The position numbers and the translations under genes were made by a program. The notes under the pieces are model-generated. The model was not told the origin of the DNA and made no database searches. It worked only from the letters and a program-made list of their open reading frames with translations. This document shows positions 1 through 35,745 of a stretch of 64,000 bases of DNA, one piece after another; the stretch's first letter is position 1; each line of letters opens with the position of its first letter. Source of the DNA: Lachnospiraceae bacterium (GTDB lineage Bacteria; Bacillota; Clostridia; Lachnospirales; Lachnospiraceae); the NCBI GenBank assembly GCA_017431345.1, contig JAFRLH010000057.1, forward strand, positions 39,952 through 103,951, in the 5' to 3' direction.

Positions 1-40
1 CCGCTGCCGAAGAGATACAACGTGTAACACAAGTGGCTGA

Positions 41-603: not shown

Positions 604-2235
604 ATGGGGAATAAACAGTATGACAACAAAGAATGGGAAGTGAGCAGTGCCCGACTCCGGAAGGCGCACGGCTATGCGGACGGTTCCGGCAACGCGAAGA
701 AGGCATTTGAAAATGCGCACCTCGCCGAGGAACTGGCCAGGGATATTCTGCGCCTTTCCCGTCATACGCTTTTTATCAATCTGCGGTTCATGGAAGCCGC
801 ATTTATCAGGATCGTCACCGGTCACGACATGGATACGCTGACCATGGCGACGGACGGAAATTTCCTCTATTACAATTCCGTCCATATCTGCAGGCAGTAT
901 CAGAAGGCAAAGGAGATTCCTGCCCGCGACTACCTGCACACCGTTCTGCACTGCGTTTTCCGGCATCTTTTCGTTTCCCCAAAGGTGGATGCCGCCGTCT
1001 GGGATCTTTCCTGCGACATCGCAGTCGAGAACGTGATCAATACCCTGAACCTGAAATCGCTTTACTGTGAACGTCAGGCGTCGCAGGAATGGCTCATTAA
1101 GGATCTGCAGAAGAAGATCCCGAAGCTGACAGCAGAATGGATCTATAAGCACTTCATGGAGGAAGGGCTTTCGGATGCCGATATCGAGCAGCTGCGGCGG
1201 AACTTTCTGGCTGACGATCATTCGATCTGGCATAATAAGACCTTTGTGGAATCCGGAAATGGCGATAAAGATGAGAATGCTGCCGGAGAGCAGGAAGACA
1301 ACGATTCCGGAAAAGAGACCGATGACAATGAGGGCCTTTCGGAAGAAATGGAGCCGGAAGGAGAAGACGGTGAAGACGCCGGTTCTTCCGAGGAACTGAA
1401 TACCGTCATAGAAAGCGAAGACGGCGGCGGGATCGGCGGGGAAGGATCCGGTGATTCGGACCGGGAGGATCAGAAGCCTGCATTGAAGCCCGCGGAGTTG
1501 GAAGAGGAATGGAAGGAGATCGCGGAGCGGATCCGGGTGGATCTGGAGTCTTTTTCCGATTCCTACGGTGAGGGCGCCGGCGATCTGCAGCAGCACCTCG
1601 CCGAGATCAACAGAGAAAAATACGATTATGCCGCGTTCCTGAAAAGATTTTCGGTGACCGGCGAAAACGTGGAAATAAATGATGACGAATTCGATTACAT
1701 TTTCTACACCTACGGTATGAAGCTTTACGAGAACATGCCGCTCGTGGAGCCGCTGGAATACAAGGATGTGAAGAAGATCCGGGAATTCGTGATCGCAATC
1801 GATACTTCGGAGTCTGTATCCGGCGATACCGTACAGACTTTCGTGACGAAGACGTGGAATATTCTGAAGCAGTCGGAGAATTTCTTCCGGAAGATCAATG
1901 TGCATATTATGCAGTGCGGGGCACGTGTGGAGGAAGATGTACGCATTACTTCGCAGGAAGAATTCGATGAGTATATTGCGCACATGGTGCTGAAAGGGTT
2001 CGGCGGAACGGATTTCAGGCCGGTGTTTGAGAGAGTGGATCAGCTGGTAAGGCAGCATGAGTTCGTGAACCTGAAGGGGATCATCTACTTTACGGACGGA
2101 TACGGGACGTTCCCGAATAATGCGCCGGCGTATGATACGGCGTTCATCTTCCTGGATCAGGGGTATGAGCTGCCGGAGGTGCCGCCGTGGGCGATGCGGG
2201 TGATCATGACGGAAGAGGAACTGAAGATGATATGA
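604..2235 (+). CDS. VWA-like / DUF2201 putative metallopeptidase protein
   Basis: This 543-residue protein has the layout of the DUF2201 family: an N-terminal putative metallopeptidase domain, a long acidic Gly/Glu/Asp linker (about residues 215-300) and a C-terminal von Willebrand A domain. The VWA metal site is visible as DTSES (about 400-404), GGTD (about 468) and TDG (about 497). The zinc-peptidase motif reads HTVLHCVFRH (112-121): the three histidines are present but the catalytic glutamate of HExxH is threonine, so peptidase activity is doubtful. There is no signal peptide. The stop codon overlaps the next gene's start (ATGA type), so the two are translationally coupled. VWA proteins of this kind usually work with a MoxR-type AAA+ ATPase, and one lies two genes downstream. 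Confidence 0.8.
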   Translation: MGNKQYDNKEWEVSSARLRKAHGYADGSGNAKKAFENAHLAEELARDILRLSRHTLFINLRFMEAAFIRIVTGHDMDTLTMATDGNFLYYNSVHICRQYQKAKEIPARDYLHTVLHCVFRHLFVSPKVDAAVWDLSCDIAVENVINTLNLKSLYCERQASQEWLIKDLQKKIPKLTAEWIYKHFMEEGLSDADIEQLRRNFLADDHSIWHNKTFVESGNGDKDENAAGEQEDNDSGKETDDNEGLSEEMEPEGEDGEDAGSSEELNTVIESEDGGGIGGEGSGDSDREDQKPALKPAELEEEWKEIAERIRVDLESFSDSYGEGAGDLQQHLAEINREKYDYAAFLKRFSVTGENVEINDDEFDYIFYTYGMKLYENMPLVEPLEYKDVKKIREFVIAIDTSESVSGDTVQTFVTKTWNILKQSENFFRKINVHIMQCGARVEEDVRITSQEEFDEYIAHMVLKGFGGTDFRPVFERVDQLVRQHEFVNLKGIIYFTDGYGTFPNNAPAYDTAFIFLDQGYELPEVPPWAMRVIMTEEELKMI

Positions 2236-4163
2236 ACGATTTTGTGATCGAAAACAGCATACTGATCAAATACACCGGCTCGGAACCCTACGTCGAGATC
2301 CCGGACAGCATCACCGTCATCGGCGAAGGTGCCTTTCGCGACTGCCGGGATCTGCATGAGATCACGATACCGGATTCGGTCAGGGAAATCGCTTCGGAAG
2401 CCTTTCATCTTTGCGTCAATCTGAGCAAAGTGATCGGTGCGGCCGGCGTGGTAAAAATCGGCCGGGATGTTTTCACCCGGACCCCGTGGTACAAATATTA
2501 CTCCGAGAACGAGACTGAATGGAAGGAAGACTTCGTTTTCATCGGACGCGTTCTCGTAAAAGCAAGAAGAAATATAAAAGAAGCAATCATCCCGGACGGG
2601 ACCACGATGATCGCTGCGGATGCATTCCACGAAAGAGTAATGATGCGGCACGTGGAAATTCCGGACAGCGTTTCCTATATCGGCTGGAGGGCGTTCAAGG
2701 GCTGCTCCGGGCTGACAGCGGTCAGGATCCCCGGCACCGTGAAACGGCTCGGCTGGCACTGCTTTGAGACTTGTCCCAGGCTGACGGACATTCAGATCGG
2801 GGAAGGTGTGGAGATCTTCGAGAACGGCGTGTTCTCCAGCTGCCGCGGAATCTATTCAGTCACCTTCCCGGCATCGCTGAAGGCACTTGGCGGATGGACA
2901 TTTTTCTCGTGCAGTGCCCTGCGGGAAGTGACTTTCAAAGGCGTGCTTCGCGAGATCGGAGAGAGAACTTTTTCGGGCTGTTTCGAACTGCTTTCCGTGC
3001 ATGTGCCGGAAGGGCTTGAAAAAATCGGTGTGGAAGCATTTTACGAATGCACGAATCTGAAGGAGGTCCCGCTCCCGGATTCGGTGAAAGTGATCGAGCG
3101 GCAGGCGTTCACCAACGACCGGTATTTTGAGAAACTGATCCTGCCGAAAAGCCTGGAACAGATGGATGAAGCGGTATTCCACGGTTGTCAGGGTATAAAG
3201 GAACTGGCCATCCCGCCGTTCCTGAAGAAAGTGCCGGCAAACAGTTTCTTTGGCTGCAGGGGGATCAGGAAACTGATGATCTCGGAAGGTGTGGAAGAGA
3301 TCGGAGACGGCGCATTCAGCAGATGCAGCGAACTGACGGAAGTCGTTCTTCCGAAGAGCATGAAGCGGATCGGAGACAGCGCATTCGGCAGCTGCAGAAA
3401 TCTCTCACGAATCATTCTTCCGGACGGACTGGAAGAGATCGGCAGCGAATGTTTCTCCCGCTGCGGTATGCTTGCGGAAGCGGAGATCCCCGCTTCTGTG
3501 AAGCGGATCGGAGGAGGTGCATTTGCCCATTGCCATGAACTGGCAGATGACAGAGAATTCATTATACAGGACGGAACCTTTTACGCTTATCTGGGGGAAT
3601 CGACGGAAGTGACAGTTCCGGAGGGCGTGCAGAAGATTGCTTCCGGCGCCTTTGCAGAGAACAGAAAATACCGCCGGATCTTCATTCCGGAGAGTGTGAC
3701 GGAAATCGGGGACGGCGCGTTCCGCAGCTGTGAAAGCCTGTTCGAACTGCGGATCCTGTCCGGGAAGATCAATAATCTGGGAGAAGATCCTTTTGCCGGA
3801 TGCGACAGGCTGGTCACGGCAACGGTCTGCGGCTTGTCACCGTATGATTTTGCAGAGGAAACGCAACGAACGGCGGCAGCGCTGGGGTACTGTGAAAAGA
3901 GCCGCCTGTTCAATGGCGCGGTCTCGGGAAAGTGCAGGAAATACGCAGAGGATCATCTGGAGACCATCCTCATGAAGGCTGTCGATGAAAAGCTGACTGA
4001 TGCGGTGAAGTTCTTTACGGAAAGAGACATGCTGGAAGACAGCGTTTTCTATGAAGTCCTCGAATATGCGCAGAAGAAGAAAGCTATGGAAATCGTCGCG
4101 GTACTGCTGGATCACAGGAACAGCAGGACGGATATGGATGAATTCAGCAGATATGATATTTAA
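2232..4163 (+). CDS. BspA-type leucine-rich-repeat protein
   Basis: A 643-residue protein made almost entirely of LRR_5 (BspA-like) repeats of about 23 residues, with recurring patterns such as IGDGAFSRC and LPKSMKRIGDSAF. About the last 100 residues are helical and not LRR. Although the frame is open from 2187, the start at 2232 is preferred because it overlaps the previous stop in ATGA and has GAGGA upstream. No signal peptide or cell-wall anchor is seen, so unlike many BspA proteins it is probably cytoplasmic. Its place between a VWA protein and a MoxR ATPase suggests an adaptor or substrate-recognition role; this is inference. Confidence 0.82.
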   Translation: MNDFVIENSILIKYTGSEPYVEIPDSITVIGEGAFRDCRDLHEITIPDSVREIASEAFHLCVNLSKVIGAAGVVKIGRDVFTRTPWYKYYSENETEWKEDFVFIGRVLVKARRNIKEAIIPDGTTMIAADAFHERVMMRHVEIPDSVSYIGWRAFKGCSGLTAVRIPGTVKRLGWHCFETCPRLTDIQIGEGVEIFENGVFSSCRGIYSVTFPASLKALGGWTFFSCSALREVTFKGVLREIGERTFSGCFELLSVHVPEGLEKIGVEAFYECTNLKEVPLPDSVKVIERQAFTNDRYFEKLILPKSLEQMDEAVFHGCQGIKELAIPPFLKKVPANSFFGCRGIRKLMISEGVEEIGDGAFSRCSELTEVVLPKSMKRIGDSAFGSCRNLSRIILPDGLEEIGSECFSRCGMLAEAEIPASVKRIGGGAFAHCHELADDREFIIQDGTFYAYLGESTEVTVPEGVQKIASGAFAENRKYRRIFIPESVTEIGDGAFRSCESLFELRILSGKINNLGEDPFAGCDRLVTATVCGLSPYDFAEETQRTAAALGYCEKSRLFNGAVSGKCRKYAEDHLETILMKAVDEKLTDAVKFFTERDMLEDSVFYEVLEYAQKKKAMEIVAVLLDHRNSRTDMDEFSRYDI

Positions 4164-4178
4164 CGGGAAGGGTTCGAT

Positions 4179-5696
4179 ATGAACATTCAGGACGCGAAAG
4201 AACAGATCAAAAACGCCATGACGGCGTATTTTACAAAAGATGAATTCGGCAATTACAGGATTCCGATCGAGAAGCAGCGGCCGGTCCTGCTGATGGGCCC
4301 GCCCGGTATTGGAAAGACGGCGGTGATGGAGCAGATCGCTTCCGAGCTTGGCGTAGGCCTGGTGTCCTATTCCATGACACACCACACCAGGCAGAGCGCG
4401 CTGGGCCTCCCGTATATCACCGAAAATGAATTCGAGGGCATGAAATACCAGCTCTCGGAATATACTATGAGTGAGATCATCGGTTCGATCTACAAGCTGA
4501 TGAAGGAGACCGGCGTCCGGGAAGGCATCCTTTTCCTGGATGAGATCAACTGCGTTTCGGAAACGCTGGCACCGTGCATGCTGCAGTTCCTGCAGTATAA
4601 GGTGTTCGGCCAGCACCGGATCCCGAACGGCTGGATCGTGGTGACGGCAGGCAATCCGCCGGAATACAATAAATCCGTGCGAGACTTTGATATCGTCACC
4701 TGGGACAGACTGAAGCGGATCGACGTGGAGCCGGATTATGAAGCCTGGAAGAAATATGCTTCCGCGCAGAACGTTCACCCCGCCGTTATGACTTATCTGG
4801 CGGCGCGGAAGAAGGATTTTTACAAGATCGAGAGCACCGTGGACGGCAGGCATTTCGTTACCGCCAGAGGCTGGGAAGATCTCTCGGAAATGATCCGGCT
4901 CTATGAAGAGAACGATATAAAAGTTGATGAGAAGCTGATCAGCCAGTACATCCAGCATGAGAAGATCTCGAAGGATTTCGCAATTTACTATGATCTGTTC
5001 CGGAAGTACCGGAGCGATTACAAGATCGATGCGATCCTGGCGGGAACGCCGGATGAAAATGTGCTGTTCCGGGCGAAGCGGGCGCCGATGGATGAAAAGC
5101 TGAGTTTCCTGGGATTGCTGTTCGACGCGGTGACGTCGCATCTGCGGGAAGTGTGCGAGCAGGAGGATCTGCTGGATGCGCTGCTGCCGCTTGTGAAGAC
5201 GATCAAAGCGGAACTTGCATCAGAGGACGGACAGAAGCCGGCGGATCTCGTGGATGCGCACATTACGGAGCAAATGGATGCACTGGAAAAGGGAAGAAAA
5301 GCTTCCTCGCTCTCGCCCTCGAAACAGCGGTGCATGCAGAGAGTCATGGCGGCGCTCGGCGAATTCAAAGCCCTGCTGCTGCATGACGGATGCACCGGAA
5401 ATGAAGCCTTTGAAGTTATCCGCGGGGCGTTCGGGAAGAATGTGGCGAATCTGAAAGAGATGTCGGCGGCGGGATCAAAAGTGCTGGATTACGCCTTTGA
5501 TTTCTGTGAGAAGGCGTTCCCGGAGGGCGATGAGATCCTGATCTTCGTTACGGAGCTTACGGTGAATTATTATACGGCGCGGTTTATCGGCCATTACGGG
5601 TGTGATAAGTACTTCCTGCATAATAAGGAACTGCAGTTCTCGGAGAGACAGATGGAGATCGATGAGAAAGTGAAGAAGCTCGACTGGGAGCTGTAA
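4179..5696 (+). CDS. MoxR-like AAA+ ATPase
   Basis: A 505-residue AAA_5-type ATPase. Walker A is GPPGIGKT at 40-47, Walker B is GILFLDEIN at 116-124, the sensor asparagine lies in TAGNPPEYN (about 157-165) and a DRLKR arginine cluster follows (176-180). The C-terminal 250 residues are helical and family-specific. A GGGAAGGG-like ribosome site precedes the start, 15 bases after the LRR gene. MoxR ATPases typically remodel or activate a client together with a VWA-domain partner (RavA-ViaA, CbbQ-CbbO and NorQ-NorD are known pairs). The VWA gene two positions upstream is the natural partner. The client is not known. Confidence 0.88.
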   Translation: MNIQDAKEQIKNAMTAYFTKDEFGNYRIPIEKQRPVLLMGPPGIGKTAVMEQIASELGVGLVSYSMTHHTRQSALGLPYITENEFEGMKYQLSEYTMSEIIGSIYKLMKETGVREGILFLDEINCVSETLAPCMLQFLQYKVFGQHRIPNGWIVVTAGNPPEYNKSVRDFDIVTWDRLKRIDVEPDYEAWKKYASAQNVHPAVMTYLAARKKDFYKIESTVDGRHFVTARGWEDLSEMIRLYEENDIKVDEKLISQYIQHEKISKDFAIYYDLFRKYRSDYKIDAILAGTPDENVLFRAKRAPMDEKLSFLGLLFDAVTSHLREVCEQEDLLDALLPLVKTIKAELASEDGQKPADLVDAHITEQMDALEKGRKASSLSPSKQRCMQRVMAALGEFKALLLHDGCTGNEAFEVIRGAFGKNVANLKEMSAAGSKVLDYAFDFCEKAFPEGDEILIFVTELTVNYYTARFIGHYGCDKYFLHNKELQFSERQMEIDEKVKKLDWEL

Positions 5697-5713
5697 GGAA
5701 AGGAGATAATACC

Positions 5714-6199
5714 ATGTCAAATTTATACACAGAAAAAAGAAAAGAACTCACCGCGCAGTTCGCGCAGCTCATGCCGCTCATCGAAGAGGAACGCCAGGCC
5801 TTTATCATGGCTGAGGGAGGCAGGCTCGCTGCCGTCATCGGCACCGGTTACTGGGTAAAGGAAGCCGAAGATTACGAGATCTTCCACGGCAGAAAAGGAG
5901 ATGAGCTTGCGCTGATCGAAGCCCGTCCGAAGGATCCCTATGATATTACGATCGAAGAGATCGAATGGATCACCCGCCAGTATAAGAAGATCGAACGCTG
6001 CGGGACGGAGACATATATCAATTTCTTTAACATGATGCCGGATGACAAGGAGAGGATCACATTGCTTGCGGGCATGTGGCATAAACTGTCGCATGATACG
6101 CTGTGCACGGATGCGGAGATCAAGAAGCTGGTCGACGGACATGACGAGTTCATCAACAGGAAGCTTTCCGATCCGGTGAAGGTGATCAGCCATATCTGA
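5714..6199 (+). CDS. Uncharacterised 161-residue protein of the MoxR/VWA cluster
   Basis: I do not recognise this family. It is a soluble, mostly helical protein without signal peptide or membrane segment. The N-terminal third is rich in Glu and Ala, and the middle holds an aromatic stretch (GTGYWVKEAEDYEIF). It has a strong AAAGGAGAT ribosome site and begins 17 bases after the ATPase gene, so it is very likely co-transcribed with it. A role as cofactor or client of the ATPase is possible but rests only on position. Confidence 0.7.
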   Translation: MSNLYTEKRKELTAQFAQLMPLIEEERQAFIMAEGGRLAAVIGTGYWVKEAEDYEIFHGRKGDELALIEARPKDPYDITIEEIEWITRQYKKIERCGTETYINFFNMMPDDKERITLLAGMWHKLSHDTLCTDAEIKKLVDGHDEFINRKLSDPVKVISHI

Positions 6200-6200
6200 A

Positions 6201-6275
6201 GATGACAGAAAGCCGCGAAGTGAAGTCATCCTGCTTTATTTATGCGGTGGATCCTTCGACAGGCTCAGGATGACA
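6201..6275. repeat. Dispersed TGTCATCC-type repeat, copy 1
   Basis: GATGAC at 6201-6206 and GTCATC at 6225-6230 form one imperfect inverted pair. GGATCCTTCGACAGG at 6249 followed by CTCAGGATGACA (ending at 6275) carries the characteristic GGATCCTTCG and GGATGACA ends of an intergenic repeat seen in many bacterial genomes. Related copies occur at 20992, 32215, 40682 and 54917. Confidence 0.6.
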
Positions 6276-6325
6276 ATGGTCCTGACGATAACCCGGAATG
6301 AAAGATCTTGGGAGGAATGCAAAAT

Positions 6326-7516
6326 ATGAGAACACTCAATAAAGAAGTGAAAGATTACGCCCTGCACGTGACATTATGCGCGGATAAAAACGAGTTTGAC
6401 ACAGCCAGGAAACTGGCTTATATGGACAATACCGACAGATATCCTGTGCCGGGCTGCGCTCCCGGCCTGGCCCAGCTTGCGGATCTGCAGAAGACCTACG
6501 GGCCGGCAGTGCTTTTTGACGAAGCCCTTGCTTCGCTGATCCCGAACTATTTCAATGAATTTCTGCAGAAGGAAAAGATCCGGATCTTCGGCAAGCCGGA
6601 GGTGAACGATGTCCAGTTCCTGCCGGACGGCGGTGTAAGCTTCCAGATCAAAGCCGACATGTTCCCGCAGGTCGAGCTTGGGCAGTACAGGGATATCGCC
6701 GTTCCGTTCGTGCGCATGGAACAGCAGGCGGAATTCGAGCAGGCTGTCCTGCAGAAAGCCTGTGAGAACATGAAGGGAGAGATCCCGCCGGCGCTGATCG
6801 AGCAGAAGATGAACGCGATCCTGGCGCAGGAGAAGCTGAACATCCATAATGATGCCGTCTATCATCTGCTGGCCGATATGCTCGTGATCCTGGATGAAGC
6901 GTATGTCGCCGCCGGTGCCGTGCGTCCGAAAGTCCAGGTAAGACGCGAGGCGATGGATCTGATGCTTCAATGCGCTTCTGCTGAGCATGAACTGGACTGG
7001 CGTGATTTCCTGAAGGAGCAGGTCAAGGTGATGGCGGAACGTTATCACAGCCTTCCCGCTGATTTTGATAAAAAGATCGACGCTATCATGAAGAAACGGG
7101 AAGATGCAAAGCACAAAATGAGCCCGGATGCCCTTACGGATGAACTGTTCAAGGCCTATCTCGGTTCTCTTGAACTGACTGAAGATCAGTGGAAGAACCA
7201 GCGTATGGGCCAGGCGGCGAAAGATGTCTGTATCGATCTGCTTCTGGAAGCCGTCGCGGAGAAGGAGGATCTTTCTGTCAGCAATGACGAGATCCACGCG
7301 GGGATCGAAGAGCTGGCCTCCCGATACGGCCTTGAGCCTGAGGAAGCGGAAGCCAATATCGATAAAGGTGCATTCGCAGGCAAGCTTGTGCGTGACAAAG
7401 CGCTTGCACTCATTCTGAATGCAGCAAAAACGGATTATGAAGCGAAAGCTGCACTGGATAAGAAAAGAGCAGAGACAGCCGCAAAGATGAATGCGGACGT
7501 AGAAGTGAAAAACTGA
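6326..7516 (+). CDS. Trigger-factor-like chaperone lacking the PPIase domain
   Basis: A 396-residue paralogue of trigger factor. The N-terminal domain keeps the pattern of the real Tig at 34465 (for example LFDEALASLIPNYFNEFL aligns with FLEDAINETVPGVYEEAV, and VELGQYRDIAV with VTLGEYKGLSV). The ribosome-docking GFRKGKAPR loop is replaced by VPGCAPGLAQL. The FKBP-type PPIase domain is missing, and the protein passes straight into the helical C-terminal chaperone arms (EIPPALIEQKM; the DEIHAGIEELASRYGLEPEE stretch aligns with EEIEKEIADMAERYGMEIDK). The start at 6326 is chosen because GGGAGG lies 10 bases upstream; an upstream TTG and an ATG at 6317 are less well placed. It probably acts off the ribosome and may serve the preceding MoxR/VWA genes. 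Confidence 0.78.
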   Translation: MRTLNKEVKDYALHVTLCADKNEFDTARKLAYMDNTDRYPVPGCAPGLAQLADLQKTYGPAVLFDEALASLIPNYFNEFLQKEKIRIFGKPEVNDVQFLPDGGVSFQIKADMFPQVELGQYRDIAVPFVRMEQQAEFEQAVLQKACENMKGEIPPALIEQKMNAILAQEKLNIHNDAVYHLLADMLVILDEAYVAAGAVRPKVQVRREAMDLMLQCASAEHELDWRDFLKEQVKVMAERYHSLPADFDKKIDAIMKKREDAKHKMSPDALTDELFKAYLGSLELTEDQWKNQRMGQAAKDVCIDLLLEAVAEKEDLSVSNDEIHAGIEELASRYGLEPEEAEANIDKGAFAGKLVRDKALALILNAAKTDYEAKAALDKKRAETAAKMNADVEVKN

Positions 7517-7602: not shown

Positions 7603-9018
7603 ATGTCAGAGGAAAAGGAAATCAAAAAAACTGTAACGGAAAAGGATAACGGCAGCAGGAAAGCTGCCGCCGCGTCTCCGCTGGAAACGGAAAAGATCAG
7701 CCGTCTGCTGGTCTCCTTCTGCATTCCCGCGCTCGCGAGCAGCCTGGTCACTTCCGTTTATAATATCGTTGACCAGCTGTTCATCGGGAACCTGCTTGGC
7801 GTGGCGGGAAACGCGGCGACCAATGTTGTATTCCCTGCCGTCACCCTGATTTCCGCCTTATCGCTGATGTGCGGCGTCGGTTCCTCGAATTCCATGAACA
7901 TCCACAGAGGCCGCGGAGATACAAAAACCGCCGCAAAATGTGTCGGCGGAGGATTCGGCATGATGATCCTTTTCGGCCTGGCTGTTATGATCCCGATGCT
8001 TTTGGCGACAAGACCGATCCTGACCCTTTTCGGATGCACGGAATCGGTCATGCCGTACGCGCTGGATTATGCCCGTATCATTGCGCTGTCGTTTGTCTTC
8101 TCCATGATCAGCGCAGCCGGCACCTTCCTTGTCCGGGCGGACGGTGCGCCGAAATTCGCGCTGTACTGCATCGCCGTCGGATCGTTATCCAATGTATTCA
8201 TGGACTGGATCTTCATCTATGTCTTCGGATGGGGGATCAAAGGAGCTGCCTGGGCGACGTTTCTGGCGCAGGCGATCAGTACCGCGATGGTCCTGTGGTA
8301 TATGACAAAACGGTTCAGATCGTTTACCCTTTCGGCAGAAGATTTCAGACCGGATCTGCAGATTTATGGCAGGCTTGCCGCGATCGGTTTCGGTCCTGCG
8401 TTCAACTTCGGCACGCAGGCGATCGTGCAGATCTTTATCAATAATGCGCTGCGGAAATACGGCGCGCAGTCGGTTTACGGCAGCGATGTCTGCCTGGCGA
8501 TCGCGGGTATTGCCGGAAAAGTGAATACGTTTGCATCCGGTGTTGTGGTAGGCCTGACGAACGGACTGCAGCCGATCTCCAGCTATAATTTCGGACGGAA
8601 GAATTATAAGAGAGTAGCGGAAGCCGGAAAGAAAGTGGTCGGTCTGGTGCTTGCCATCGGATTCGTGATCTTTCTTTGCTATCAGATCTTCCCGGTGCAG
8701 ATCACTTCACTATTCGGTGAGGGAGATGAACTGTATTTTGAATTTGCAGCGAAATATTTCCGCATCTTTTATCTGCTGATCATGCTGTTCGGGCTGCAGA
8801 GCTCTGTGGCGGGATTCTTTTCGTCGCAGGGAAAGGTGAAGCAGTCGATCACGATCTCGCTCGTCCGGCAGGTGATCTTCTTCCCGCCGCTGCTGATCAT
8901 CCTCCCGAAATTCTTCGGGCTCACCGGCGTGCTGGTATCCGGCCCGCTGTCGGATCTTGCGATGGCGGTCGTGGCAGGGACGCTCTTTATCAGGGAACTG
9001 AAGAAGCTGGAAAGCTGA
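7603..9018 (+). CDS. MATE family efflux transporter
   Basis: A 471-residue integral membrane protein with about twelve hydrophobic segments and a cytoplasmic N-terminal tail of some 35 residues rich in Lys and Glu. The first membrane segments carry the MATE pattern IPALASSLVTSVYNIVDQ and a second half of the same layout begins near residue 250. MATE proteins export cationic drugs or metabolites using Na+ or H+ gradients; the substrate cannot be read from sequence. The gene converges on the Crp/Fnr-type gene with only 15 bases between the stops. Confidence 0.92.
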   Translation: MSEEKEIKKTVTEKDNGSRKAAAASPLETEKISRLLVSFCIPALASSLVTSVYNIVDQLFIGNLLGVAGNAATNVVFPAVTLISALSLMCGVGSSNSMNIHRGRGDTKTAAKCVGGGFGMMILFGLAVMIPMLLATRPILTLFGCTESVMPYALDYARIIALSFVFSMISAAGTFLVRADGAPKFALYCIAVGSLSNVFMDWIFIYVFGWGIKGAAWATFLAQAISTAMVLWYMTKRFRSFTLSAEDFRPDLQIYGRLAAIGFGPAFNFGTQAIVQIFINNALRKYGAQSVYGSDVCLAIAGIAGKVNTFASGVVVGLTNGLQPISSYNFGRKNYKRVAEAGKKVVGLVLAIGFVIFLCYQIFPVQITSLFGEGDELYFEFAAKYFRIFYLLIMLFGLQSSVAGFFSSQGKVKQSITISLVRQVIFFPPLLIILPKFFGLTGVLVSGPLSDLAMAVVAGTLFIRELKKLES

Positions 9019-9033: not shown

Positions 9034-9741
9034 TCACTGATCTTCCTCCAGTTCCAGACTGTCCATATACGTCAACAGCGCATCGATATCCGGCACATAG
9101 AGGTGCCCTTTATGCTTGCTGATCAAACCCATATCAGCAAGTTTTTTCAGCTTCCTGGTGACAGTAACGCGGTTCAATCCCAGAATCTCTGCTGTCATCT
9201 GGTGGCTGATCTTATCTTTGACATACATCCCGTCTTTATACTTTTCTCCGTAATTTTCCAGATCGCTGATGATCATCCGGCAGATCTTCCATTCTGTATT
9301 CTGCCGGGAACCGATCCGCTGTGTCTCCATGGAGGATACGAATTTCCCGCAGACGGAATCCAGAAGATCAAGCGAAATGTCAATATCGGATTTCATCGCC
9401 CGGATCAGGTCGCAGCGGTCGATGACCACGATCTCTGAAGCGGTCAGTGTTGTGAACAGCACCGGACACGGCTTCGGGAAGAGGGCATATTCCTCCAGAA
9501 AAAGCGATCCGCTCCGCATGATATTGTAAACGCGGTGCTCCCCGGAATACGAATCTTCATAGACCTTCACCCGGCCTGTCACGAGCAGATAGCAGCTCTC
9601 CGGCGGTCTTTCCCGGAAATCAAAAATATAGTTTTTCGGGAACTGTTTTACAGTCCCGAGTTCCTTCAGACGTTCATAGCCCCTGTTTATCCGCAGGATA
9701 TGGTACTGATCGGCTAAAGGCTCTTTATAATTGTTTTTCAT
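9034..9741 (-). CDS. Crp/Fnr family transcriptional regulator
   Basis: A 235-residue regulator with an N-terminal cyclic-nucleotide-binding-type beta barrel (about 25-125; YLLVTGRVKVYED and GSLFLEEYALF) and a C-terminal winged helix-turn-helix (178-206, ISHQMTAEILGLNRVTVTRKL). The Fnr-type N-terminal cysteine cluster is absent, so it does not look like a classical Fe-S oxygen sensor. It is divergent from the methyltransferase-fusion gene at 9836 and could control that promoter as well as its own. The effector is unknown. Confidence 0.9.
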   Translation of the reverse strand: MKNNYKEPLADQYHILRINRGYERLKELGTVKQFPKNYIFDFRERPPESCYLLVTGRVKVYEDSYSGEHRVYNIMRSGSLFLEEYALFPKPCPVLFTTLTASEIVVIDRCDLIRAMKSDIDISLDLLDSVCGKFVSSMETQRIGSRQNTEWKICRMIISDLENYGEKYKDGMYVKDKISHQMTAEILGLNRVTVTRKLKKLADMGLISKHKGHLYVPDIDALLTYMDSLELEEDQ

Positions 9742-9835
9742 GATTCTTCACCCGCTCATGGCAAAAATGTGTTTATGAACGAACATCTTCCTGATATAAT
9801 TATAACATACTTTACGAAAACGGAGTAAGGGAAAA

Positions 9836-10684
9836 ATGAAAACTGCGGTCATTCTCGGCGCCGGACAGATGGGCCGGGCGCTTACAGAGCTTATCAATAC
9901 GAACAGATACAGGATTACAGCGATCGGAGATAATGATCCGGGGAAGCACAATACGGCAGCGGAGCCGCCCGTTATGTCTGTAGAAGAAGCGCTTGCAGCA
10001 AGACCGGAAACAGCAGTGATCGCTGTCATGGGGGAAGACAGAGCAGCAGCGATAAAGAAGCAGGCATTGGACTGCGGGTACACAGGCAGGATCCTGCTGC
10101 TCTCTGAACTTTCCGATCTGCTGGATGTGCGGGGACGTACAATAAAACTGATCTGTGACCGGATCAATGATCTGAAGATCCCCGGAGCGGCGGCTGAACT
10201 GGGTGTGTACAAAGGAGATACTGCAAGACTGATCAATCTGTATCTGCCGGACAGGGCATTCTATCTCTTTGATACATTTGAAGGATTTGATGAAAGAGAC
10301 AAAGCATCCGGGCAGGACGGGAACAGACCGTTCAAAGCAGGGATGTTTGCCGACACGTCTGAAGAAATGGTGACCGGCCGGCTTCCGCATCCGGAAAAAG
10401 CAGTTATTCAAAAAGGCTATTTTCCGGAGACTGCGGCAGGTCTCGAAGAAGAGCGCTATGCCTTTGTGAGCCTGGATCCCGATCTGTATGCGCCGGTCCT
10501 GGCAGGCCTGCGCTATTTCATCCCCCGGCTCAGTCCGGGCGGCATGATCGTTCTGCATGATTATAACAATAAACAGTTCCCGGGCGCGCATCAGGCAGTC
10601 AGTGATTTTGAGGCGGAAAACGGACGGCTGCTGCTCGTTCCGCTCGCAGATCTGCATGGGTCGTGCGTGATCATGAAGCAATAG
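9836..10684 (+). CDS. Rossmann-domain / TylF-type methyltransferase fusion
   Basis: A 282-residue two-domain protein. Residues 1-100 form a nucleotide-binding Rossmann unit (AVILGAGQMGRAL) like those of PglD-type or CoA-binding domains. Residues 110-282 resemble TylF/MycF O-methyltransferases, with an AELGVYKGDTARLI SAM-binding loop, LFDTFEGFDE, FVSLDPDLYAP and a GGMIVLHDYNN segment typical of the metal-binding region. It probably methylates a sugar or small hydroxylated compound. There is no obvious pathway partner nearby. A TATAAT box lies at 9795-9800. Confidence 0.75.
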   Translation: MKTAVILGAGQMGRALTELINTNRYRITAIGDNDPGKHNTAAEPPVMSVEEALAARPETAVIAVMGEDRAAAIKKQALDCGYTGRILLLSELSDLLDVRGRTIKLICDRINDLKIPGAAAELGVYKGDTARLINLYLPDRAFYLFDTFEGFDERDKASGQDGNRPFKAGMFADTSEEMVTGRLPHPEKAVIQKGYFPETAAGLEEERYAFVSLDPDLYAPVLAGLRYFIPRLSPGGMIVLHDYNNKQFPGAHQAVSDFEAENGRLLLVPLADLHGSCVIMKQ

Positions 10685-34464: not shown

Positions 34465-35745
34465 ATGAGTGTAAGTGTTGAAAAGTTAGAGGGAAATCTT
34501 GCCAAACTGACTGTGGAGATCGCAGCAGATGTTATCGATAAAGCCGAGCAGGCAGTCTATCTGAAAGAGAAGAACCGGATCCAGCTTCCCGGATTCAGAA
34601 AGGGCAAAGCGCCCCGCCATATGATCGAGAAACTGTATGGAAAGGGAATCTTCCTGGAGGACGCCATCAATGAGACCGTGCCCGGCGTCTATGAAGAAGC
34701 CGTTGAGGAAAGCGGACTGGAAGTCGTATCCCAGCCGCAGATCGAATATACACAGGTCGAGCCCGGAAAGCCCGTGATCTTTGTCGCTACCGTAGCCACA
34801 AAGCCGGAAGTCACTCTGGGCGAGTACAAAGGCCTTTCCGTAGAGAAACCGGAAGTTTCCGTGACGGAAGAAGAGATCGATGCGGAAGTAAAGAAAGAGC
34901 AGGAGAAGAACGCGACCCTCGTGAACGTCGAAGACCGTCCTGTTGCAGACGGCGATACCGTCCAGATCGATTATGACGGCTATGTCGACGGCATGCCTTT
35001 CGAAGGCGGCAAGGCGGAGAATCATGATCTCGTGATCGGTTCCCACAGCTTCATCGATACTTTCGAGGAGCAGCTGATCGGCGCCAACATCGGCGAGGAG
35101 AAGCAGATCAATGTGACCTTCCCCGAAGCCTATCATGCAAAGGAACTGGCCGGAAAGCCCGCACTCTTTGTCGTAAAGATCAAAGGCATCAAGAAGAACG
35201 AGCTTCCTGCGCTGGATGATGAGTTCGCCTCCGAAGTCTCCGAGTTCGAGACCATGGCTGAGTACCGTGAAAGTTTAAAGAAGACGCTTACTGAGCAGAA
35301 GGAAACACAGGCTAAGCGCGAGCTTGAAGATGCGCTGGTCATGGAAGCCGTAAAGAATGCTTCCATGGAGATCCCGGATCTCATGGTGGAAACACAGGCC
35401 AGGGATATGCTGAACCAGTTTGCCCAGAACCTGCAGTACCAGGGACTGAATATTGATCAGTACATGAGCTATACCGGATCCACCGCGGACGCCATGCTGG
35501 AGCAGTACAAGACGACTGCAAAGAGCAGGATCGAGAACAGCCTCGTGCTTGAAGCCATCGCGAAAGCAGAGAATATCGAAGCTACAGAAGAAGAGATCGA
35601 AAAAGAGATCGCCGATATGGCAGAGCGCTACGGCATGGAAATCGACAAGGTTAAAGAGTATGTCGATGATGCGCAGCGCACAGAGATCAAAGGCAGCATC
35701 GCCATCAGGAAAGCTGTCGATCTGCTTGTGGAGAACGCCAAATAA
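34465..35745 (+). CDS. tig: Trigger factor
   Basis: A 426-residue ribosome-associated chaperone. It has the ribosome-docking loop GFRKGKAPR (43-51), a central FKBP-type PPIase domain (about 155-240, with GDTVQIDYDGYVDG and FPEAYHAKELAGKPA) and helical C-terminal arms. Full length and standard. It begins the classic tig-clpP-clpX-lon-ysxC run. A degenerate paralogue lies at 6326. Confidence 0.98.
   Translation: MSVSVEKLEGNLAKLTVEIAADVIDKAEQAVYLKEKNRIQLPGFRKGKAPRHMIEKLYGKGIFLEDAINETVPGVYEEAVEESGLEVVSQPQIEYTQVEPGKPVIFVATVATKPEVTLGEYKGLSVEKPEVSVTEEEIDAEVKKEQEKNATLVNVEDRPVADGDTVQIDYDGYVDGMPFEGGKAENHDLVIGSHSFIDTFEEQLIGANIGEEKQINVTFPEAYHAKELAGKPALFVVKIKGIKKNELPALDDEFASEVSEFETMAEYRESLKKTLTEQKETQAKRELEDALVMEAVKNASMEIPDLMVETQARDMLNQFAQNLQYQGLNIDQYMSYTGSTADAMLEQYKTTAKSRIENSLVLEAIAKAENIEATEEEIEKEIADMAERYGMEIDKVKEYVDDAQRTEIKGSIAIRKAVDLLVENAK

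Follow-up and report, generated by a model that had tools for sequence, protein, structure and literature searches.

The 64,000-nucleotide window analyzed here comprises bases 39952-103951 of contig C63 (window base = C63 coordinate minus 39951) in the draft genome of a Lachnospiraceae bacterium (G000; 3.27 Mb, 94 contigs). Near its start lie five genes on one strand, encoding a VWA/DUF2201 protein, a leucine-rich repeat (LRR) protein, a MoxR-type AAA+ ATPase, a protein of 161 residues and a relative of trigger factor, which a first-pass annotation had proposed to form a cytosolic maturation or surveillance machine. Genes for a molybdenum (Mo) hydroxylase precede them. Three relatives recur below: G308, a congener of the window genome; L168, a contig of a Clostridiales metagenome-assembled genome (MAG); and L173, a MAG contig labelled Deltaproteobacteria. 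The features are as follows.

1..27, + strand: 3' end of the gene for a Mo-binding subunit (XdhA-like, 819 residues); the remainder lies upstream, where the genes of the three-subunit Mo hydroxylase occupy L005 10148-13979
604..2235, + strand: VWA/DUF2201 protein with a putative pseudo-metallopeptidase N-domain, an acidic linker and a VWA domain with intact MIDAS
2232..4163, + strand: BspA-type LRR protein, putative adaptor (643 residues), with a conserved C-terminal domain at about residues 541-639 that is helical by eye
4179..5696, + strand: MoxR-type AAA+ ATPase (505 residues), Walker A/B intact, family motif THHTRQS
5714..6199, + strand: 161-residue protein with relatives in G308, L168, and L173; tentatively, a degenerate HEPN-like domain
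6326..7516, + strand: trigger-factor-like protein, predicted holdase, lacking both a peptidyl-prolyl isomerase (PPIase) domain and the loop GFRKGK that docks on the ribosome
7603..9018, + strand: MATE transporter, syntenic in G308 and L168, with a close homologue (569 bits) near the L071 system
9034..9741, - strand: Crp/Fnr-type regulator, syntenic in G308 and L168, with a partial homologue in L173 and two homologues near the L071 system

The coordinates of the open reading frames (ORFs) confirmed the tight packing of the first four genes, with a 4-base overlap between the VWA and LRR genes and gaps of 15 and 17 bases; the ORF list also gives an upstream GTG start at 2187 for the LRR gene. The gap of 126 bases before the trigger-factor-like gene holds with ATG 6326, which is also the start of the L168 orthologue, while the listed start, TTG 6308, is possible as well. 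Pfam agreed with the domains that had been assigned in the first-pass annotation. The VWA protein matched DUF2201 (48 bits) and DUF2201_N (37 bits), the LRR protein matched LRR_5 (348 bits) and LRR_8, and the trigger-factor-like protein matched Trigger_N (59 bits) and Trigger_C (64 bits), the PPIase (FKBP) domain being absent. The 161-residue protein had no Pfam hit up to an E value of 10. For the ATPase, AAA (35.8 bits) and AAA_5 (32.2 bits) passed the cut-off, and AAA_3 (13.7 against 27 bits), which we take to be the Pfam model linked with MoxR, and bpMoxR (20.4 against 27 bits) did not; the name MoxR-like is used here in a loose sense. The five proteins lack strongly hydrophobic stretches (highest 19-residue Kyte-Doolittle mean, 1.6), compatible with the cytosolic location suggested earlier.

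The genes for XdhB, XdhC, and the XdhA-like subunit stand directly upstream of the VWA gene, and the hydroxylase is invisible in the window because XdhA ends at window base 27. XdhA matched the Pfam models MoCoBD_1 (232 bits), MoCoBD_2 (228 bits), and Ald_Xan_dh_C (110 bits). A hydroxylase of the xanthine dehydrogenase type adjoins the cluster in all four genomes seen of the window clade, two of which belong to one genus. The contig of L168 starts inside XdhA and continues with the VWA, LRR, MoxR, 161-residue, and trigger-factor-like genes, MATE and Crp. The order in L173 is Crp-like, trigger-factor-like, XdhB, XdhC, XdhA, VWA, LRR, MoxR, a gene like that for the 161-residue protein, and a gene with a molybdopterin-binding domain. 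In G308, contig C71 carries the Xdh genes and part of the VWA gene, and contig C91 carries part of the MoxR gene, the 161-residue and trigger-factor-like genes, MATE and Crp. Identities between the window proteins and those of L168 and L173, respectively, were 92% (over 248 residues) and 76% for XdhA, 75% and 60% for MoxR, 69% and 53% for VWA, 49% and 41% for LRR, 67% and 29% for the 161-residue protein, and 63% and 33% for the trigger-factor-like protein. The window XdhA is at most 30% identical to the eight other Mo hydroxylases of its own genome. That genome, at 3.27 Mb, has nine genes matching MoCoBD_1, and 186 of the 299 genomes in a family panel (one genome per genus, own genome included) have none at E ≤ 1e-10.

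The earlier expectation that all five families would recur together held only in part. All five were found together only in the window genome, L168, L173 (rearranged), and G308 (in pieces, with the LRR gene unseen), while VWA, MoxR, and LRR proteins form a general unit; the 161-residue and trigger-factor-like genes were encountered in a single MoxR clade. MoxR matches (E ≤ 1e-20) were present in 160 of the 299 family genomes. In one genome of the family, G264, the MoxR protein is identical to that of Parablautia intestinalis. We analyzed 158 MoxR loci, taken from 41 stretches, 40 further ones, and the best 80 of a scan of species genomes after exclusion of L078, L097, and L128, which had no MoxR match above 200 bits. 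The choice of loci is non-random, combining the top of the MoxR ranking, hits in congeners, a hand-picked lower sample, and the best 80, and it includes four duplicate pairs (L030/L171, L060/L196, L066/L223, and L064/L222). By their labels, these loci come from Lachnospiraceae, Oscillospiraceae, Anaerovoracaceae, Eubacteriaceae, and Coriobacteriia such as Paraeggerthella and Senegalimassilia. A gene with the C-terminal domain of the LRR protein (C-domain) lies within 8 kb of MoxR in 137 of the 158, as judged by a profile that was rebuilt three times from its own hits within one and the same set of ORFs, and on which the weak members lean; LRR and C-domain hits were counted on any strand. Gene order varies (with V, M, and L for the VWA, MoxR, and LRR genes: VML 55, LVM 49, VM 21, VLM 6, and others) and the partners are constant. 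C-domain genes numbered 1.87 per 10 kb at less than 2.5 kb from MoxR, 0.34 at 2.5-5 kb, and 0.11-0.13 beyond 5 kb, counted without L171, L196, L222, L223, and the window. Hence, the three genes occur together more than by chance, and the core is not confined to the window genome: a VWA(DUF2201)-MoxR-LRR/C-domain unit is present in gut Clostridia and Coriobacteriia. Many of the 21 loci lacking a C-domain gene end near a contig edge, although six of them (L143, L150, L162, L178, L184, and L231) extend for over 5 kb to either side of MoxR. In 14 loci there are two to nine C-domain genes. L183, L189, L194, and L235 have three to nine, mostly LRR genes, around one MoxR, an unusual expansion of paralogues. 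The window genome also contains a second LRR-VWA-MoxR system (L059; G000:C2 48000-66000) with an adaptor of 298 residues, and no Mo hydroxylase was found on its 18 kb.

The ATPase and MIDAS motifs are largely intact at these loci. Of the 158 MoxR proteins, 154 have the Walker A pattern and 148 have the DEIN pattern, and the VWA MIDAS residues D400, S402, S404, T469, and D498 are present in all 153 VWA proteins. The N-domain of the window VWA protein keeps H112, H116, H121, and D138 and has threonine at position 113, where a metallopeptidase would have glutamate. The metal-ligand site was readable in 146 of the 153 VWA proteins; the first histidine was present in 144, the second in 146, the third in 145, and the aspartate in 145, and none of the 146 had the catalytic glutamate of the HExxH motif. 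The complete motif HExxHxxxxH was seen in four distantly related DUF2201_N proteins, one encoded by a Thermus phage and three by plasmids. Judging from these residues, the N-domain is a pseudo-metallopeptidase in the members seen, with the metal ligands retained and the catalytic residue gone. The first-pass annotation had overlooked the loss of the catalytic glutamate. The family phrog_1314, which the VWA protein also matched (117.5 bits), bears an HNH endonuclease label that seems mistaken in view of the DUF2201/VWA match. A search of PDB sequences returned no match for the VWA profile; for MoxR it gave only two, both P-loop matches to one AAA protein.

The LRR proteins align as an LRR_5 part that is short or long, followed by the C-domain, which is helical by eye. 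At most loci the protein was first recognized by weak LRR matches. Its length is 643-648 residues in the lineages of the window, L168, and L173; ORFs with the C-domain range overall from 95 to 1578 residues, cut genes included. In L079, from the congener G305, the VWA protein carries the C-domain fused to its N terminus (38 bits by profile); the retrieved contig, which ends 19 bases from MoxR, shows no LRR gene. N-terminal extensions that look similar by eye, unscored by the profile, occur in the VWA proteins of L080 and L081, where there is no LRR gene within 5 kb. From the fusion we infer that the C-domain may dock on the VWA protein.

The trigger-factor-like protein scored 109 with the NCBIfam model tig, below the cut-off of 180. 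It shares Trigger_N and Trigger_C with the canonical Tig of its own genome and, unlike Tig, lacks the PPIase domain and the GFRKGK loop, in place of which it reads PGCAPGLA. Among the matches listed for the other 298 family genomes there was no close relative, all being Tig-like proteins at 22-31% identity, and 390 other genomes of the class gave no match at E ≤ 1e-25. In all four genomes where the gene was seen it lies inside the cluster. In L173, the C-terminal part alone remains. Most plausibly, the protein is a holdase that no longer works at the ribosome. The canonical Tig is encoded at about 34465-34896 of the window (G000:C63:74416-74847); the Trigger_N match of a third protein, at G000:C16:18255-18440, is weak (20.8 bits).

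Comparison of the window genome with G308 covered those genes that could be read on the G308 contigs, the LRR gene not being among them. The ratio omega was 0.04 for the trigger-factor-like gene, 0.02 for XdhA, 0.07 for the MoxR part, and 0.16 for the VWA part, and the gene for the 161-residue protein had 12 nucleotide changes and a dN of 0. The trigger factor had been called degenerate, which is true only of its lost domains and does not fit a gene under such strong purifying selection.

The 161-residue protein had no sequence match in the PDB, and library searches lent its fold no support. A profile search of 373 genomes of the order recovered the protein in its own genome and gave weak hits in two genomes outside the family, where the similar region is the C-terminal part of proteins of 387-395 residues, each encoded downstream of a protein of 1870 or 2096 residues (L259, 3474-9086 followed by 9083-10270; L260, 2884-9174 followed by 9171-10334). 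These distant relatives have RNDLAH near the C terminus, which resembles the RxxxxH motif of HEPN domains. The window protein reads WHKLSH and does not match RxxxxH, so that a HEPN-like domain in it is tentative and would be degenerate. Of the two large proteins, that of L259 was scanned and shows a stretch resembling nSTAND1 (26.2 bits against a cut-off of 27.1), and each such pair of large protein and RNDLAH protein is possibly a conflict system. A match in G068 (34% over 50 residues) was set aside as likely chance.

MoxR-VWA couples are enzyme activators. Taken together, the analysis indicates that the cluster is most likely a maturation machine like CoxD/CoxE, equipped with an LRR client adaptor and a ribosome-independent holdase derived from trigger factor. 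We favor, with moderate confidence, the more specific reading that the core is a MoxR-VWA couple with an LRR client adaptor which, in the window clade, is dedicated to the adjacent Mo hydroxylase of the xanthine dehydrogenase type. The trigger-factor-derived protein, off the ribosome, would hold the apo-subunit of the hydroxylase; the LRR solenoid would bind this client and thereby choose it; and the LRR protein, its C-terminal domain docked on the VWA protein, would deliver the apo-subunit to the VWA/MoxR ring. Remodelling driven by ATP might then open or close the active site so that the Mo cofactor can be inserted or sulfurated, a step modelled on the action of CoxD/CoxE on CO dehydrogenase or of NorQ/NorD on nitric oxide reductase. 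From gene arrangement and sequence we infer the physical docking, the identity of the client, the remodelling step, and a role for the 161-residue protein, the assignment of the Mo hydroxylase as client resting on synteny. Two elements of the earlier proposal gain support, namely a MoxR/VWA machine partnered by an LRR protein and, linked to it, a chaperone-like protein; the adjoining hydroxylase genes suggest a specific client instead of general surveillance.

The distribution of hydroxylase genes gives this assignment some support. A quick IQ-TREE analysis of MoxR (157 rows) places the window in a clade with L168 and L173 (SH-aLRT 98), and two sister pairs have Mo hydroxylases nearby, L071 with L219 (SH-aLRT 90) and L200 with L214 (93). 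The XdhA of L219, on a different branch, belongs to the same subfamily (53% identity) and is convergent to MoxR; the hydroxylases of L071 and L200 are of other subfamilies (29% and 27% identical to that of the window), and in L226 a contig edge cuts off what is a partial hit. In total, Mo hydroxylase genes lie on the available DNA of 8 of the 158 MoxR loci, against about 0.5% estimated for a random stretch of 18.5 kb (from 255 matches in the 299 family genomes, mean genome 2.95 Mb). This enrichment is suggestive, as the window genome alone has nine copies and the estimate covers its own family and not Oscillospiraceae. Among family genomes, a Mo hydroxylase is present in 77 of the 160 with MoxR and in 36 of the 139 without (p = 8e-5), and co-occurrence persisted within strata of genome size (odds ratio 2.2, p = 0.003), both figures ignoring kinship and assembly quality.

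Several observations weigh against a dedicated Mo hydroxylase client. The co-occurrence statistics take no account of phylogeny or assembly quality. With nine MoCoBD_1 genes in the window genome, proximity to one of them is less surprising there. At 150 of the 158 loci no Mo hydroxylase was found on the 3 to 21 kb available for each, so that the machine in general is not specific for Mo enzymes, and the wider family, mostly without such a neighbor, probably serves other clients. The gap between XdhA and VWA is 576 bases here (93, 328, and 383 in L168, L173, and G308, respectively) and contains a promoter-like match at 298-327, so that a joint transcript is conjectural. This is one of 8 promoter-like hits in the first 10 kb, where shuffled sequences gave 8.4; terminator-like sites numbered 17 over 10 kb compared with 8.9 in shuffles, and none was listed on the + strand in the gap. 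XdhA matches the NCBIfam models of the xanthine dehydrogenase family below cut-off in every case. The best score was with the 4-hydroxybenzoyl-CoA reductase alpha subunit (603 bits against a cut-off of 995), XdhA models being among the best as well; CO dehydrogenase models scored 318 and 290 bits compared with 560 to 603 for the XdhA type, none over cut-off. On a possible dependence on selenium, Se_dep_XDH, a model of one long chain, scored 163 and 323 with the two subunits against 830. Finally, L173 is a MAG contig whose label is doubtful.

The cluster has other possible readings. The machine could serve general cytosolic quality control or stress, acting on many clients with the hydroxylase incidental or one among them, which we consider rather unlikely. 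Such a role would suit the presence of MoxR in more than half of the family genomes, the 14 loci with multiple C-domain genes, and the second copy of the window genome at L059. Clustering of flanking genes at 154 loci (without the four duplicates) named no informative family that could point to a general client (ABC-type 21, response-regulator 20, MATE 16, then at most 8), which also counts for a general role. Such a role sits poorly with the joint occurrence, in the four genomes seen of the window clade, of one XdhA subfamily with the 161-residue and trigger-factor-like genes, and with the nearly constant LRR length there. The VWA protein might instead be a metal chaperone, its vacated HExxH site carrying zinc or another metal to the Mo hydroxylase or another metalloenzyme, driven by MoxR. 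The retention of the ligands in 144-146 of 146 proteins with the glutamate in none, whereas four distant relatives have HExxH, speaks for it, and so do NorQ/NorD, which serves iron insertion (PMC9976466), and CoxD/E/F, which serves a Cu/S/Mo site (PMC4240915). We nevertheless judge metal delivery improbable: the metal could be purely structural, and the Mo cofactor and Fe-S clusters are, to our knowledge, all that an ordinary xanthine dehydrogenase requires, with no further metal delivered by a protein.

Least probable to us is a role in immunity or conflict on the pattern of the ternary MoxR-vWA systems (Kaur et al.), with the LRR protein as sensor of an invader, MoxR-VWA setting a threshold and the 161-residue protein as HEPN-like effector. 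LRR is the most diverged of the core proteins (49% identity to L168, compared with 69% for VWA and 75% for MoxR), the adaptor arrays reach nine genes, and the RNDLAH proteins distantly related to the 161-residue protein are each encoded after a very large protein, nSTAND1-like in part in L259. However, the motif is degenerate in the window protein, the neighbors are metabolic genes, and purifying selection between congeners (omega 0 to 0.16 in the testable genes, among them the 161-residue, trigger-factor-like, and partial VWA genes) argues against a fast-evolving defence system. A defence assignment from PADLOC was also rejected, the hits being weak (AAA, up to 26 bits, for MoxR; 12.9 bits for the 161-residue protein). 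Beyond the dedicated machine that we favor, a broader form of it is plausible, if short of probable: a modular maturation platform in which a MoxR-VWA engine with a metal-binding pseudoprotease would reach different clients through interchangeable LRR adaptors sharing a docking domain, one branch having added the off-ribosome trigger factor holdase for the Mo hydroxylase.

The closest parallel is CoxD/CoxE(/CoxF) of the Oligotropha CO dehydrogenase, where, in the part of the source available to us, MoxR-type ATPase and VWA genes also lie beside a Mo hydroxylase of the xanthine dehydrogenase family (PMC4240915). The same text describes CoxD as an AAA+ ATPase required for sulfuration of the Mo site and CoxE as a von Willebrand protein acting with CoxF, and doubts a chaperone action of CoxD on the apoenzyme (PMC4240915). 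This neighborhood was found in the window genome, G308, L168, and L173, the likeness being one of gene kinds and position. Unlike in CoxD/CoxE, the VWA protein here has a DUF2201 N-domain, and the LRR adaptor, the 161-residue protein and the trigger-factor-like holdase are added. NorQ/NorD is likewise a MoxR/VWA couple activating a metalloenzyme, although the client differs; according to the abstract, NorQ is a hexamer whose pore is plugged by NorD, an intact VWA domain and ATP hydrolysis are required, and no LRR or trigger factor partner is mentioned (PMC9976466). The MoxR-vWA ternary systems also combine MoxR and vWA with a third conserved component, given in the excerpts available as VMAP, iSTAND, FtsH, or beta-propeller and later iSTAND2 and TERNS3, with a proposed role in conflict (PMC7159879, PMC8195603), and an excerpt of a further report links them to CRISPR loci (PMC10910872). 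Here the third component is an LRR/C-domain protein, the context is metabolic, and the testable genes evolve slowly. Pfam detected no known ternary third component (LRR_5 and LRR_8 were found instead, and the bpMoxR cut-off was missed) and no signalling domain, and neither Pfam nor PADLOC detected an effector family in the five proteins, the degenerate HEPN-like 161-residue protein being a possible exception. RavA-ViaA of E. coli is also a MoxR/VWA couple, tied to respiratory enzymes and, in the partial accounts available, without an LRR adaptor. ViaA has an N-terminal domain of its own that is not known to resemble DUF2201.

Among the matches listed in a literature search, seen in part and with most subscription journals outside its scope, there was no LRR third component with MoxR-VWA and no trigger factor with a Mo hydroxylase. 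For the choice of clients by MoxR-VWA couples, a conserved family of variable LRR adaptors with a constant C-domain offers a testable answer, and this little-studied protein-remodelling machine of a gut bacterium is of wider relevance, as MoxR occurs in about half of the sampled genomes (160/299) of a major gut family. An off-ribosome trigger factor tied to one metalloenzyme would, if true, be an unusual chaperone specialization.

Two further observations concern relatives of the MoxR-VWA couple. A second MoxR (307 residues, AAA_5) and a VWA protein (586 residues) are encoded at L005 7036-7959 and 8086-9846, just 5' of XdhB, and the Mo hydroxylase is thus flanked by two MoxR-VWA pairs; the second pair is also present in G308 (L078), and a pair like it is found near the L178 system. 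Six faecal records named Bacteriophage sp. (MT837836, MT837993, MT835935, MT837937, MT836813, and MT839739) carry VWA and MoxR of the family, unannotated. A phage origin was rejected, the records of the phage collection with the best MoxR/VWA matches being faecal contigs, short (4 to 15 kb) and unannotated, that are likely bacterial fragments misfiled as phage.

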